Source: Anaerolineaceae bacterium
GTDB taxonomy: Bacteria; Chloroflexota; Anaerolineae; Anaerolineales; Villigracilaceae
DNA: 35,160 nt
Direction: 5' to 3'
NCBI GenBank assembly: GCA_009885525.1
Contig: VFKN01000154.1
Span: 1 to 35,160 of the forward strand
The stretch's first letter is position 1; every line of letters starts with the position of its first letter. The translations under genes and the position numbers were made by a program. Below the pieces are notes generated by a model, which saw nothing but the letters and a program-made list of their open reading frames with translations, was not told the DNA's origin and searched no databases. Of the stretch, positions 28,057 to 34,981 are shown piece after piece.

Positions 28057-28746
28057 TTATTTCCTCGCCTCACATTTCTTGCCGTCGCCATTCCACACAC
28101 AGGCAATGGAATTTTGCTCGCAGGTCGCCTTTTTTTTGTAGACACTGCAATCCACCAGACAACTGATCGTTTTGAGTTTGAGCACTGTGCAGTTCTGCAC
28201 AAGCTGCTGGAATCCCTGCATACAGCACCCTTGCCGATTGTTGTAGTTATATTCCGGCGGACATTGCGTGGTGCTTGCTTGAACTGTTGGGACAACACAA
28301 CTCGGATCGCACACGCTAACTTCAAATTGCGATGCCATCAGACCGGTGCACGTCACGATTTGTTTGTTATCTTTTATACCGTCATTTGAGCAGGTAAAAT
28401 CCTTGGTAAGCACATCATAAGTTAAGCCCTTATTGATGAAGATCAGGTTATACGGCCTTTTCTTTGCGCAAAAAGTGCCGCCTTCTTCGATGACCGGAAT
28501 CTGACATTGGACAGGTGGCACACTGGTCAGTTCGCAGAGTGGCGCTAGATCTTGCGTTGCAGAGGCGGTCGGGATAATCTCGCCGGGCGTGCTTACAGGC
28601 GTTGAGGTTTCTGTGGAACTCACAGCCGCTGTTGGTGTCTCTGTATTATTCTTTGGCGCTGAACTGGGTAAATTACAGGACGCTGTAATTTCTATCAACA
28701 AGAAGAAGAGGATTGGAAAGATGATGGGTTTTAGAGTTTTATTCAT
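28057..28746 (-). CDS. Cysteine-rich lipoprotein
   Basis: This 229-residue protein has a lipobox (ITASC, lipidated Cys24) and then a Thr/Ser/Pro-rich linker (about 25-65). The remaining 160 residues hold 16 Cys, enough for eight disulfides. The end, CLVDCSVYKKKATCEQNSIACVWNGDGKKC, has a spacing like PSI- or EGF-like small disulfide folds. No family is recognised. It is presumably on the outer face of the membrane. AAGGAGA lies 7 bases before the ATG. It is convergent with the glycan operon and probably monocistronic. Confidence 0.8.
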   Translation of the reverse strand: MNKTLKPIIFPILFFLLIEITASCNLPSSAPKNNTETPTAAVSSTETSTPVSTPGEIIPTASATQDLAPLCELTSVPPVQCQIPVIEEGGTFCAKKRPYNLIFINKGLTYDVLTKDFTCSNDGIKDNKQIVTCTGLMASQFEVSVCDPSCVVPTVQASTTQCPPEYNYNNRQGCCMQGFQQLVQNCTVLKLKTISCLVDCSVYKKKATCEQNSIACVWNGDGKKCEARK

Positions 28747-28842
28747 GTCTGGGTCTCCTTGATAATCGTTGATAAAATCATTTGCTGGACACTTTAGATT
28801 ATACAGGTTTCAAATCCGGATTTCTACTTGATAGAAAATACT

Positions 28843-28969
28843 GTGTGCACGCAAAACATGTCAGGCCGGGGTTGCTCCCTGCGCCGTCCCCGGCGCAGGG
28901 TTTCCTCGCAAAACGCCGCCGAGGACGGCGGCTGGAAGCATAGGTTAATGACAACCTTTGCGTGCACAC
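28843..28969. mobile_element. 127-bp MITE-like element with 8-bp target duplication
   Basis: Perfect 13-bp terminal inverted repeats GTGTGCACGCAAA (28843-28855) and TTTGCGTGCACAC (28957-28969) are flanked by exact AAAATACT repeats (28835-28842 and 28970-28977). The interior is GC-rich in an AT-rich gap. It has two perfect hairpins: CCCTGCGCCG/CGGCGCAGGG (28877-28900, 4-base loop) and GCCGCCG/CGGCGGC (28915-28932, 4-base loop). There is no transposase or other ORF. It is unrelated to the CTCACCTTACGCA family. The rest of the 28747-29085 gap holds the divergent start regions of the lipoprotein and LiaI-like genes. Confidence 0.75.
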
Positions 28970-29085
28970 AAAATACTCGTGCGCAACTTGTTACTGCTTT
29001 CATCGTATACATTCAAAGACTTTGCTTTTCATCTGAAAAGTAATACACTATTATCGAAATCACTTTTAAAGGAGATCATACAATT

Positions 29086-29616
29086 ATGAACAAACAAGGT
29101 CGTTCCCAACTTGCGCTTGGCGTTATTCTAATCCTTCTCGGCGCGTGGTTCCTGCTCGATAAGACCAATCCGCAGTTCCATTCTCTTTTTGCAAAATATG
29201 CTGCATGGCCTCTCAATATGTTCCTGATCGGCGGCGCGATTCTTATCATCGGTTTGGTGACAGGCCAGCCTGGTATGGCGGTGCCTGCTGCGATCGTTGC
29301 CGGACTTGGCGGAATTTTTTACTATCAGAAAATAACTGAGACTTCTGATTCCTGGTCATATATGTGGACGCTCATCCCCGGTTTCGTCGGCGTGGGGACT
29401 GTTGTTGCAGGCCTGCTTGGCGATAACACCGCGCGCAATCTCAAACACGGACTGAATCTAATGGTCATTAGCGCCGTGCTTTTTCTCGTCTTCTCATCGT
29501 TCTTCGGCGGCTGGGCATTGCTTGGCAGTTACGGCCCTTCCATTTTGTTGATCCTGCTCGGCTTGTGGGTGCTGGGCAACGGCATCTACCGCTCGTATCG
29601 CAACAAGGAGGAATAA
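29086..29616 (+). CDS. LiaI/DUF5668-like membrane protein
   Basis: This 176-residue protein has the start SQLALGVILILLGAWFLLDK and a closing block SYGPSILLILLGLWVLGNGIYRSYRN, both resembling the two-helix LiaI-LiaF-like unit (DUF5668). In total there are about six short hydrophobic segments. The function is unknown; homologues belong to envelope-stress systems, but no LiaR/LiaS partner is in this window. GGAG (AAAGGAGATC) lies 8-9 bases before the ATG. It is translated just before the related LiaF-like gene (1 base between stop and next start). Confidence 0.75.
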   Translation: MNKQGRSQLALGVILILLGAWFLLDKTNPQFHSLFAKYAAWPLNMFLIGGAILIIGLVTGQPGMAVPAAIVAGLGGIFYYQKITETSDSWSYMWTLIPGFVGVGTVVAGLLGDNTARNLKHGLNLMVISAVLFLVFSSFFGGWALLGSYGPSILLILLGLWVLGNGIYRSYRNKEE

Positions 29617-31437: not shown

Positions 31438-31450
31438 TTATTTAATCAAA

Positions 31451-31740
31451 AGCAATGATGAGAACGAGTAAATTTGCAGAGACGTCAGCGAGTTCGTGAT
31501 TTGGTGTGAGGCGAACCTTCCAGGCAAATTGAAAATCATCTCGGAGCCGCGAGCGGAAATCAGTGGCCAGTTATCAGTAAACAGTGGTCAGTGAAAGTAA
31601 GCGAGCCGAAATTGTTCTTCGTTAGCGGAACAGGATGATGTTCGTCGTCCAAATGAGTGCCTATCCCTGTGATAGGAATCAGAGTGGTACCGCGTGAGCC
31701 TGGCTCTCGTCTCTGTATGAGATGAGAGTTTTATTTTTTA
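31451..31740 (+). promoter_or_regulatory. T-box leader of ileS (AUC specifier)
   Basis: The T-box sequence AGAGTGGTACCGCG is at 31681-31694. Stem I runs from about 31456 to 31543: AGTA on its 5' side and GAAA-ATC-A on its 3' side form the specifier loop with ATC (Ile) at 31535-31537. An apical GGTG lies in a GTTCG/CGAAC hairpin. Stem III is probably CCTATC/GATAGG (31660-31676). The antiterminator pairs AGAG (31681-31684) with CTCT (31711-31714). The rival terminator pairs 31704-31713 with 31719-31728, followed by TTTTATTTTTT. Uncharged tRNA-Ile would favour readthrough into ileS. Confidence 0.92.
31561..31595 (+). repeat. CAGT heptamer array inside the T-box leader
   Basis: Five adjacent 7-base units begin with CAGT: CAGTGGC, CAGTTAT, CAGTAAA, CAGTGGT, CAGTGAA. 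They lie between stem I and stem III, in the linker region of the leader. Confidence 0.6.
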
Positions 31741-31825: not shown

Positions 31826-34800
31826 ATGTTCAAATCAGTATCATCCAAACTCGAAGTGGTTTCAATGGAAGAGAACGTCCTCAAGATGTGGAAGAAGCAG
31901 GACATCTTCAAGAAAACCATCGAGCAGCGCAAAGACAAACCCGAATATGTCTTCTATGAAGGACCACCCACTGCTAATGGGCGCCCGGGCGTGCATCATG
32001 TTCTTGCGCGTGCGTTCAAGGATATGTTCCCGCGCTATAAGATCATGCGCGGATATCACGTCTCGCGCCGCGGCGGCTGGGATACTCACGGTTTGCCGGT
32101 TGAGATTGAGGTTGAGAAACAACTCGGCTTCAATAACAAACAGCAGATCGAAGAATATGGCGTGGATAAATTCAACGAGCTGTGCAGAAATTCGGTATTC
32201 ACTTACATCCAAGAGTGGGAAAAACTCACAGACCGCATCGCCTTTTGGGTTGATCTCGAAACCGCGTATGTGACCTACGAAAATGACTACATCGAATCCG
32301 TTTGGTGGATTCTGAAAAACTTCTGGGAAAAGGATCTGCTTTTCAAGGGCTATAAAGTTGTCCCGTATTGCCCGAGATGCGGCACGCCGCTTTCCGACCA
32401 CGAAGTTGCGCTTGGTTACGAAGATGCTACCGACCCTTCGGTCTTTGTCCGCTTGCCGCTCGTCGATAAACCCGATACCTCGTTGTTGGTGTGGACGACG
32501 ACCCCGTGGACTCTGCCTTCCAATGTCGCCGTCGCTGCGCACCCTGATGTGGATTACGTCACCATCGAACGCGACAACGACGGCACAAAAGAGAAACTCA
32601 TCCTCGCGAAGAATCTGGTTGAAAAAGTTTTCAAGGATGAAGAAGTTAAAGTGCTTGAAACTTATAAGGGTAAAAAATTAAAGGGCGTGAAATATCAGCC
32701 GCTTTATACTTTTATGCCCGTGGATAAACCCGCATATTACGTCCTGCTTGCAGATTATGTCACCACCGAAGATGGTTCTGGTCTCGTACATCAAGCCCCC
32801 GCGTTTGGCGCGGAAGATATGGAGACTGGCAAAAAACATGACCTGCCAATCCTGCTCACCGTGCAGCCTGATGGAACTTTCATCCCCGAGATCACTCCGT
32901 GGAGAGGAATTTTCGTTAAAGATGCCGACCCGCTTATCATCAAGGATCTTGATGCGCGTGGTTTATTATTCCGCGCGGGGACGCTCGTACATACGTATCC
33001 ATTCTGTTGGCGCTGTCACACGCCGCTTTTATATTATGCACGCGATTCCTGGTACATCCGCACCAGCGCAAAGAAAGACCGCCTCGTGGATTTGAACAAG
33101 ACAATCAACTGGGTTCCCAATCACATCAAAGCGGGGCGCTTCGGCAACTGGTTGGAAAATAATATTGACTGGTCGCTCAGCCGCGAGCGTTATTGGGGCA
33201 CGCCGCTTCCCGTTTGGGAATGTGAAAATCAGGAATGTAAACATCGCGAGTGCGTTGGTTCTGTCGCGGAACTTTCTGAAAAAGTTGGCAAGGATTTAAC
33301 TGAGCTTGATCTGCATCGCCCGCATGTGGATAATGTTTTTTGGACATGCTCCGATTGCGGCGGTAGAATGGCGCGCGTCAAAGACTTGATTGATGTGTGG
33401 TTCGACTCTGGTTCAATGCCTTACGCGCAGTGGCATTACCCGTTTGAGAATCAGGAAAAATTCAAACAGCAATTCCCCGCCGATTACATCTGCGAAGCGG
33501 TGGATCAAACGCGTGGTTGGTTCTATTCGCTGCACGCCATCAGCACTTTGCTTAATGATGATGTGTCCTTCAAGAATGTCATCTGCCTCGGTCATATCCA
33601 GGATGTGGATGGGCGCAAGATGTCCAAGTCGTTGGGCAATATCGTCCAGCCGTGGGATGTGTTGAACGTCCACGGCGCAGATGCGCTGCGCTGGTATCTC
33701 TACACCGCCACGCCGCCCGGGCAGGAACGCCGCTTCTCTTCCGATTTGGTTGGCGATGTGATCCGCAGTTTTACATTGACGCTATGGAACGTTTACTCGT
33801 TCTTCATCACATACGCCAACCTCGATAAGCCGCAAGCGTTGACGGTTAACGTCGCGACCAATGAATTGGATCGCTGGCTGCTCTCCGAGTTGAACGTGCT
33901 CGTCCGCGATGTAACCAACGCCTACGAAGTTTATGATGTCACCAACGCGACTCGTCCCGTTGAAAAATTTGTGGAGTCGCTTTCCACTTGGTATGTGCGC
34001 CGTTCGCGCCGCCGCTTCTGGAAGAATGACTCAGGCGCGGATAAACAAGCCGCGTACTCGACTCTCTACACCGCTCTGGTCACCGTCGCCAAGTTGATCG
34101 CGCCCGCCATGCCTTTCCTCGCGGAAGAGTTGTATCAAAACCTTGTCCGCTCGGTGGATGAGACCGCGCCCGAATCGGTTCATCTCGCCGAATGGCCCGC
34201 AGTCATGGAAGAGTTCATCGACGAGTCCTTGAACCGCGATATGAACCTCGTGATGAAACTTGTCTCACTCGGTCACTCCGCGCGCCAGAAAGCGAATCGC
34301 AAAGTGCGTCAGCCGCTGGCCGCCGCCGCCTTCTCGGTTGGGACTGCCACCGAGCGCAAAGCGTTGATGAATAACATCGACACCATCGCAGATGAATTGA
34401 ACGTCAAGGAAGTGCGCCTGCTGGATTCCGCCACCGAGGCTGTTTCGCATACGGTCAAACCTTTCTCGAAACAACTCGGACAGAAATATGGCAATAAGTT
34501 CCCTGCCATTCAAAAAGCGATCTTCGCCATGAACGCTGAAGAAGTCGCGGCTACTTTCTTTGCCGGTAAAACACTTGAAGTTAACGCTGGCGGCGAAATT
34601 TTCCAGATCATCTCTGAAGAAGTGGAAGTGAAAGCGCAAGCCAAGGCAGGTTTTGCGGTCGCAGAAGATGGCGCGTATGTCGCTGCACTTGTCACCGACT
34701 TAACGCCCGAACTCATCGCCGAAGGTCTCGCCCGCGAATTTATCCGCCGCGCGCAGGATTTACGCAAAACCGCCGACCTCGATGTGGTGGATCGCATTGA

Positions 34801-34981
34801 GTTATATGTCGAAGCCACTCCGATCTTGAAGTCTGCGATTGAGACACATGCGGATTACATCAAAGCGGAGACGCTGGCGACAAAGTTGACATTTGAAATG
34901 CCGCCCGCGAACGCATCCGTGGTTGAAGATGAGTTTGAAGGGGAGAAGGTCAAGGTTGGGTTGGTGAAGGCGGAGAAGTGA
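31826..34981 (+). CDS. ileS: Isoleucine-tRNA ligase, IleS2 type
   Basis: This 1051-residue protein charges tRNA-Ile with isoleucine in the cytoplasm. It has the class I core followed by the editing domain, the KMSKS loop (KMSKSLGN at about 598) and a tRNA-binding C-terminus; Cys pairs in YCPRCGTPLSDHEV and CWRCHTPLL fit zinc sites. The length and sequence are of the IleS2 (eukaryote-like) type. The signature normally written HXGH is GVHH (residues 55-58, in GRPGVHHVLARAFKD), with the Gly and His exchanged. WDTHGLPVEIEVEKQLG follows as expected. GGAGG lies 5 bases before the ATG. Expression is controlled by the upstream T-box. Confidence 0.97.
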   Translation: MFKSVSSKLEVVSMEENVLKMWKKQDIFKKTIEQRKDKPEYVFYEGPPTANGRPGVHHVLARAFKDMFPRYKIMRGYHVSRRGGWDTHGLPVEIEVEKQLGFNNKQQIEEYGVDKFNELCRNSVFTYIQEWEKLTDRIAFWVDLETAYVTYENDYIESVWWILKNFWEKDLLFKGYKVVPYCPRCGTPLSDHEVALGYEDATDPSVFVRLPLVDKPDTSLLVWTTTPWTLPSNVAVAAHPDVDYVTIERDNDGTKEKLILAKNLVEKVFKDEEVKVLETYKGKKLKGVKYQPLYTFMPVDKPAYYVLLADYVTTEDGSGLVHQAPAFGAEDMETGKKHDLPILLTVQPDGTFIPEITPWRGIFVKDADPLIIKDLDARGLLFRAGTLVHTYPFCWRCHTPLLYYARDSWYIRTSAKKDRLVDLNKTINWVPNHIKAGRFGNWLENNIDWSLSRERYWGTPLPVWECENQECKHRECVGSVAELSEKVGKDLTELDLHRPHVDNVFWTCSDCGGRMARVKDLIDVWFDSGSMPYAQWHYPFENQEKFKQQFPADYICEAVDQTRGWFYSLHAISTLLNDDVSFKNVICLGHIQDVDGRKMSKSLGNIVQPWDVLNVHGADALRWYLYTATPPGQERRFSSDLVGDVIRSFTLTLWNVYSFFITYANLDKPQALTVNVATNELDRWLLSELNVLVRDVTNAYEVYDVTNATRPVEKFVESLSTWYVRRSRRRFWKNDSGADKQAAYSTLYTALVTVAKLIAPAMPFLAEELYQNLVRSVDETAPESVHLAEWPAVMEEFIDESLNRDMNLVMKLVSLGHSARQKANRKVRQPLAAAAFSVGTATERKALMNNIDTIADELNVKEVRLLDSATEAVSHTVKPFSKQLGQKYGNKFPAIQKAIFAMNAEEVAATFFAGKTLEVNAGGEIFQIISEEVEVKAQAKAGFAVAEDGAYVAALVTDLTPELIAEGLAREFIRRAQDLRKTADLDVVDRIELYVEATPILKSAIETHADYIKAETLATKLTFEMPPANASVVEDEFEGEKVKVGLVKAEK

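Follow-up and report, generated by a model that had tools for sequence, protein, structure and literature searches.

An ISKra4-type MITE with a shared double-hairpin module in an uncultured member of the Anaerolineaceae

We analyzed a 35,160-nt stretch of an Anaerolineaceae genome (contig VFKN01000154.1 of assembly GCA_009885525.1; hereafter the window), in which a 127-bp element occupies positions 28843-28969 between two divergently transcribed genes. The element is a MITE: it is short and non-coding, has inverted ends and a target duplication, and occurs in many copies. Its family, which the initial annotation could not assign, is ISKra4, as given by the ends that it has in common with a transposase-bearing element. 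We hold with high confidence that it is a non-autonomous MITE of the ISKra4 family, one that would be moved in trans by an ISKra4 transposase.

The left end, GTGTGCACGCAAA (28843-28855), and the right end, its exact complement (28957-28969), form perfect 13-bp inverted repeats, and terminal complementarity reaches 22 nt if imperfect pairing is allowed (86%). An exact 8-bp target-site duplication, AAAATACT, lies on either side at 28835-28842 and 28970-28977; by simple arithmetic, 8 bp at a set position would match perfectly by chance once in 65,536 cases. The left ISKra4-type arm, GTGTGCACGCAAAACATGTCAGGC (28843-28866, plus strand), begins with the 13-bp terminal inverted repeat, and the right one, TGACAACCTTTGCGTGCACAC (28949-28969, plus strand), ends with it. 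Between the arms lies a double-hairpin core module (28872-28939, plus strand) that runs from TTGCTCC to GGAAGC, the commonest family form of the latter being GGAGC; the module is common to several species and several kinds of ends, and its paired positions co-vary. Hairpin 1 (28877-28900, plus strand) pairs CCCTGCGCCG at 28877-28886 with CGGCGCAGGG at 28891-28900 in a perfect 10-bp stem with the loop TCCC, and hairpin 2 (28915-28932, plus strand), taken from the predicted fold, pairs GCCGCCG at 28915-28921 with CGGCGGC at 28926-28932 in a perfect 7-bp stem with the loop AGGA. Coordinates and sequence thus agree with the initial annotation, which had described a 127-bp MITE with perfect 13-bp inverted ends, an exact 8-bp duplication and two perfect GC-rich hairpins. 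It had also placed no gene inside the element, and we found no ORF of at least 80 aa overlapping the 127 bp; an Rfam search of these bases returned nothing at the gathering score. The strongly folded RNA expected upon transcription is borne out by the predicted fold, since the element out-folds all 200 dinucleotide shuffles as DNA and RNA alike (z ~ -6.9). Elsewhere in the window, the only Rfam match at the gathering score is a T-box (31446-31717), a leader that precedes the gene for a class I tRNA synthetase of 1051 aa (31826-34981).

On the left, the element has been received by the upstream region of a divergent 229-aa ORF (28057-28746, minus strand) that has no Pfam match at E 0.001. A -10 box, TATAAT (28798-28803, minus strand), faces this gene at 39 nt from the left end. 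Downstream lies a gene for a LiaI/LiaF-like membrane protein (29086-29616, plus strand), with matches under curated cut-offs; its probable -10 box, TATACA (29006-29011, plus strand), is 36 nt from the right end and fails our -10 rule, and the alignment of relatives has CGTATA at the same place. LiaI-like proteins are present in 24 of 37 genomes, including the element's own. Using the window region including the element as the BLAST query against the window's own locus (L148) and 21 other LiaI-like loci, we found no match to the element at any of the 21, the earliest match starting at window position 28998. The element was likewise not seen in 14 aligned upstream regions of relatives, in which similarity runs from about 28983 on and includes the CGTATA block, the left flank being unalignable. 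The element is absent at this locus in the relatives compared, and the conservation that would have spoken for a functional RNA was looked for at the 21 loci and in the 14 regions and found in none. Recent movement, proposed earlier from the intactness of the structure, is supported by the many near-identical copies and by the lack of a counterpart at the locus in these relatives.

The genome itself (4.1 Mb in 206 contigs, 89% complete) holds at least 41 matches to the 127 bp, the window included, at identities of 88-100%; many are partial, and scores were computed for 40 of the 72 candidates. When 3 mismatches are allowed, a 27-base second-hairpin pattern occurs at 46 places and its reversed control at none; when one is allowed, the 13-base end occurs at 59 places versus 4 for its reversed control. 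Several contigs terminate within MITE copies, which makes the copy count a minimum and may mean that some flanks are wrongly assembled. More generally, the assemblies are draft metagenomes whose contigs often end in copies, and exact repeats could partly be assembly artefacts. Applied to the window and 32 further loci of this genome, our duplication script, which misses copies with a lost or changed left end, found both ends in the window copy and in 18 others. An exact 8-bp duplication flanks 12 of these 18 and an exact 9-bp one flanks two (L009 and L010); L017 has a 9-bp duplication with one mismatch, L018 and L022 have none, and L012 is cut by a contig end. For nine further left ends no right end was found, because of contig ends or altered right sides. 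Some copies may interrupt genes: when their flanks are rejoined, a frame without stops crosses the site at L009 (492 codons), L010 (257) and L025 (373), one base of the 9-bp duplication having been kept in the first two. A 43-bp miniature (L049:4233-4275; G000 C136:30232-30274) carries both ISKra4-type ends, one of them mismatched, without the hairpin core and with no obvious 8-bp duplication.

The search for a transposase bearing the 13-base end, suggested in the initial annotation, led to ISKra4 copies at L050 in the same genome and at L140 in the sister genome G008. In the former, a solitary end (C169, L050:1356-1368) closes a transposase gene, and the last 21 bp of this transposase copy (L050:1348-1368) are identical to the last 21 bp of the MITE. 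Two pieces of the gene match the NCBIfam ISKra4 model at 128.6 and 91.3 bits, and read as one they score 233 bits against a cut-off of 205, while a Pfam search of both pieces gave no match. This is the sole ISKra4 copy with these ends seen in the genome; it has an in-frame stop inside and starts at a contig end. The sister genome carries an intact 1495-bp ISKra4 element without stops (L140:995-2489), with the ends GTGTGCACGCAAA and a flanking 9-bp duplication, CCATAAGCA, and 92% identity to the L050 copy over 1217 bp. No solved structure resembling its L140:1058-2284 portion (minus strand) was found at E 0.01. ISKra4 genes occur in 5 of 37 genomes, above the cut-off in 2, and G005 and G017 have copies with these MITE ends yet no ISKra4 match.

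The MITE tends to sit at a fixed distance from -10 boxes, which matches the promoter targeting published for ISKra4 elements in the accessible part of PMC3942029, where 13 elements of the group have sigma-A promoters 13-17 bp from their ends, on both sides. At offsets of 33-41, -10-like hexamers were found at 23 of 52 MITE junctions in the genome, all of them actually at 37-40; a rotation control of 5000 trials averaged 4.0 and peaked at 13. Taken by themselves, 14 of 27 left ends (control mean 2.2) and 9 of 25 right ends (control mean 1.8, p 0.0002) show such a box, and 14 of the 19 two-ended copies, window included, have one on at least one side. The other 29 junctions are without a -10-like box at the offset. 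Since the flanks had already been viewed when the -10 rule was drawn up, junctions of other genomes served as a check: across 56 of them, 18 matches fell at offset 36-41, with a control mean of 2.0 and a maximum of 8 (2000 trials). With the usual spacer of 16-18 nt, a -10 box 37-40 nt from the end implies a -35 position at a distance of 13-18 nt. The -35 boxes themselves are weak, with at least 4 of 6 bases at 6 of the 23 junctions, and a combined -35/-10 score at right ends was not above shuffles. The trait of several ISKra4-group members, insertion at a fixed distance upstream of sigma-A promoters, is seen here for the -10 box, with weak -35 boxes.

The double-hairpin core extends beyond this MITE. 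The 127-bp probe matched 23 of 61 genomes, namely its own, 21 of 36 of the same genus and 1 of 24 of the same order, often with the core part only, and the core pattern was found in at least 109 stretches of genome contigs. Among the matches listed, 79 of 80 come from Chloroflexi, Anaerolineales, Anaerolineae or Anaerolineaceae, and one is named only 'bacterium'. Aligning 42 chosen cores (alignment A1; 12 from the same genome and 30 from relatives), RNAalifold gave a structure with 97.7% paired cells in which 4 of 20 pairs differ on both sides; none of 500 shuffles reached either figure, and relatedness alone may partly produce such values. From 190 copies, 28 were dropped for short flanks and more as duplicates, leaving 154 distinct cores, among which a motif script assigned ISKra4-type ends to 71, CTACCGTACA-type ends to 11, TATTACAGCGC-type ends to 11 and none to 56; two rarer kinds of ends belong to 3 and 2 of the 154. 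The core thus also occurs with other kinds of inverted ends, at least two and probably four, which makes it a module common to several kinds of MITE-like elements. Of 230 first hairpins, 55 have no second-hairpin match downstream on the same strand. A reverse transcriptase was considered as mover of the core: RVT_1 is present in 15 of the 22 genomes with a core, the element's own among them, versus 5 of the 15 same-genus genomes without one, a comparison made by hand and not clean. Spread of the core by phages was considered and rejected, with no exact core-pattern match in viral contigs.

Several individual loci merit description. MITE-like inverted ends surround the core as TTCTCTACCGTACA at L247, L263, L233 and L223, as TAGTATTACAGCGC at L096, L097, L235 and L236, as GGGCGCGCTAAAAGTTTGT at L100 and as TAGACTTCTTGC at L208. 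At L084, L087, L089, L090, L112, L240 and others, the loops of the core hairpins enclose extra nested palindromes, e.g. round TACCCATTCTGGGCA or CTTCGACAAGCTCAGT. At L105:980-1111, a solo core lies near an ORF start, and by reading, the 13-bp repeat there holds a possible start codon whose frame crosses the core. At L254:3190-3300, the stretch upstream of a half-core is tandemly repeated.

Cores without MITE ends, referred to as solo cores, are often directly flanked by repeats in direct orientation much longer than 8 bp: 103 bp at L014, 77 at L213, 65 at L043, 58 at L262, 57 at L111, 43 at L200, 42 at L045, 33 at L186, 28 at L107, 27 at L188, 13 at L105 and 11 at L046. After removal of the L090/L229 tandem duplication (3 rows), a repeat score of at least 20 was reached by 9 of 53 solo cores versus 0 of 2750 mispaired flank pairs, and a score of at least 10 by 13 of 53 versus 0.36% of mispaired flanks. 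The remaining 40 are without an adjacent repeat scoring at least 10, most of them, we assume, being too old. In the window's own genome, long repeats adjoin 6 of 11 solo copies. The edges of solo copies hold short leftovers (CTG, CTGT, GG, GTAAC and CAAG) that look like remnants of a MITE arm. At L213, the 77-bp repeat bridges two genes, taking in the end of one for an alpha-amylase and the start of one for a ROK protein. We compared 15 loci with the joined L213 flanks, of which five aligned well and the other ten were uninformative. In L309, whose amylase is 95% identical, the stretch is single and uninterrupted, i.e. an empty site for the 77-bp repeat; L311, L312 and L317 also lack the core, and L310 has a degraded half-core at the same junction. 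The L213 insertion is either newer than these splits or was lost elsewhere via recombination between the repeats, and both options fit a duplication made together with the insertion.

Between the full MITE and the solo core stand copies trimmed on one side. Repeats scoring at least 13 within 70 nt were found at 25 of 155 cores, a listing made without a mispaired control in which the L090/L229 tandem duplication is counted, as are several cases that are weak or nested. The right end adjoins the repeat exactly at L216 (49 bp, exact), L103 (23 bp, exact) and L037 (25 bp), and the left end does so at L031 (40 bp), while at L041 (26 bp) it is eight bases off; L039 is also one-armed, its repeat being under the threshold. 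In the clear cases, a lost left side ends 0-6 nt before TTGCTCC and a lost right side 0-14 nt past GAGC, L238 and L262 retaining more. A -10-like box lies 37-39 nt from the surviving end at L031, L037, L039 and L103 and is absent at L041 and L216. We infer that the surviving end was set by the transposase and that the opposite one was cut back to the hairpin before being joined at another place.

These arrangements can be brought together in a model. The MITE is composed of an ISKra4 left end of ~24 bp, the double-hairpin module of ~67 bp and an ISKra4 right end of ~21 bp. The ISKra4 transposase, a Mutator-like DDE enzyme, would move it in trans and leave 8-9-bp duplications, and may set the -10 box 37-40 nt from one MITE end; in the window, the copy inserted into the gap between the two divergent genes. 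With far less certainty than the MITE assignment, the hairpin module may protect or stall ends, and copies stripped of one or both arms near the hairpin base may be joined by host repair, giving repeats of 11-103 bp rather than 8. We propose tentatively that a module common to unrelated MITE families of one bacterial order stops end-trimming and thereby gives a transposase-light route of insertion, with duplications from 11 to more than 100 bp.

A serious possibility, to be held just as tentatively, is that the long repeats post-date a normal insertion, a template switch during replication or repair across the hairpin having swapped one arm for DNA from beyond the other end. The surviving ends at L216, L103, L037 and L031 are exact and abut the repeat, and 4 of 6 one-armed copies retain the promoter offset typical of normal transposition, so that arm replacement by template switching fits the one-armed copies about as well as trimming does. 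Copies trimmed on both sides would need two such switches, and the genome has six of these with an adjacent repeat versus three one-armed copies (L031, L037 and L041).

It is unlikely, in our view, that the core moves on its own as a palindrome of the REPIN/BIME type, with a Y1 (RAYT) transposase as its mover, and was merely captured by ISKra4 and other MITEs. In favour of this, the core resembles REP doublets in its pair of inverted hairpins, the outer bases of each being conserved, here as GCTC/GAGC, and like the REPIN/BIME elements described in the available portions of PMC3116915 and PMC3733652 it is dispersed. It is found alone and with several kinds of inverted ends, the hairpins of the 30 cores from relatives are 88-93% identical versus 49% for the spacer (a biased figure, as copies were found via hairpin similarity), 4 of 20 pairs changed on both sides, and Y1 genes occur in 35 of 37 genomes. 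However, among nine Y1 loci of the same genome (L054 and L178-L185, mostly with ~1.5 kb on each side), a core was found only at L180, as part of a full MITE that lies ~1.4 kb away from the Y1 match; the others gave only two weak matches of 17-18 bases, and the exact hairpin motif is missing from 20 Y1 loci of relatives. A RAYT as mover of the core was rejected, as no solo core was seen at these nine and 20 loci. Compared with the accounts in these two sources, the core has GCTC instead of GTAG/CGTC, with no linked RAYT found at the loci examined, and it sits inside MITEs and has long direct repeats; in alignment A1 no GTAG or CGTC tag stands at the hairpin foot, CGTC appearing only at the hairpin apex. 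The long repeats of solo copies and the leftovers that resemble a MITE arm also argue against it.

Less probable still is that the core is a non-autonomous relation of an insertion sequence whose duplications are long and variable, such as IS1549 or IS1634. Repeats of 8-514 bp are reported for these two in PMC2266710, in the part of that paper available, and resemble those of the core in being long, direct and variable in length; according to the same text, nobody had put forward a mechanistic model for them. The genome has one IS1634-family transposase gene above the cut-off. Both are insertion sequences with a transposase and other ends, whereas the core is non-coding, and the IS1634 element of this genome has ends (GCTGTCCATTCGCTGAA) unlike those of the core and no flanking repeat by eye; as its ends do not match, it was rejected as the mover. 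Across 306 loci, just two pairs of half-cores lie 0.5-4 kb apart, those at L254 and L266 (~1.5 kb), and by reading, the ORFs they enclose are not transposase-like; an autonomous element with core ends was rejected on this ground. Finally, a reading of the 127 bases as conserved functional RNA, or as a regulatory element that serves the LiaI-like gene, as the strong fold upstream of a gene might suggest, can be practically dismissed, being contradicted by the 40 other matches in the genome, the target duplications, the lack of an Rfam match at the gathering score and the absence of a match at the 21 other LiaI-like loci.

As far as the accessible text of PMC3942029 allows, the window MITE resembles the ISKra4 group in the transposase family of its partner, in its near-perfect inverted ends and in the promoter at a fixed distance on either side; its duplications are of 8-9 bp. 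It differs in having no transposase inside and in the double-hairpin module. A literature search, largely without subscription papers, found no paper on ISKra4 MITEs or on the double-hairpin repeat. It is well supported that the MITE adds a member to the known ISKra4 kind, the unusual part being the shared module and the long repeats round its trimmed copies, whose mechanism we infer. An orphan MITE is thereby assigned to ISKra4, and the results suggest a family of promoter-targeting MITEs among uncultured Chloroflexota; such a family would mean that the upstream regions of genes are preferentially altered. The trimmed copies with long repeats provide a concrete set of insertions for asking how long, variable duplications arise. 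If the proposed route is true, transposase-light insertions can span gene ends without breaking either gene, as at the alpha-amylase/ROK junction of L213.
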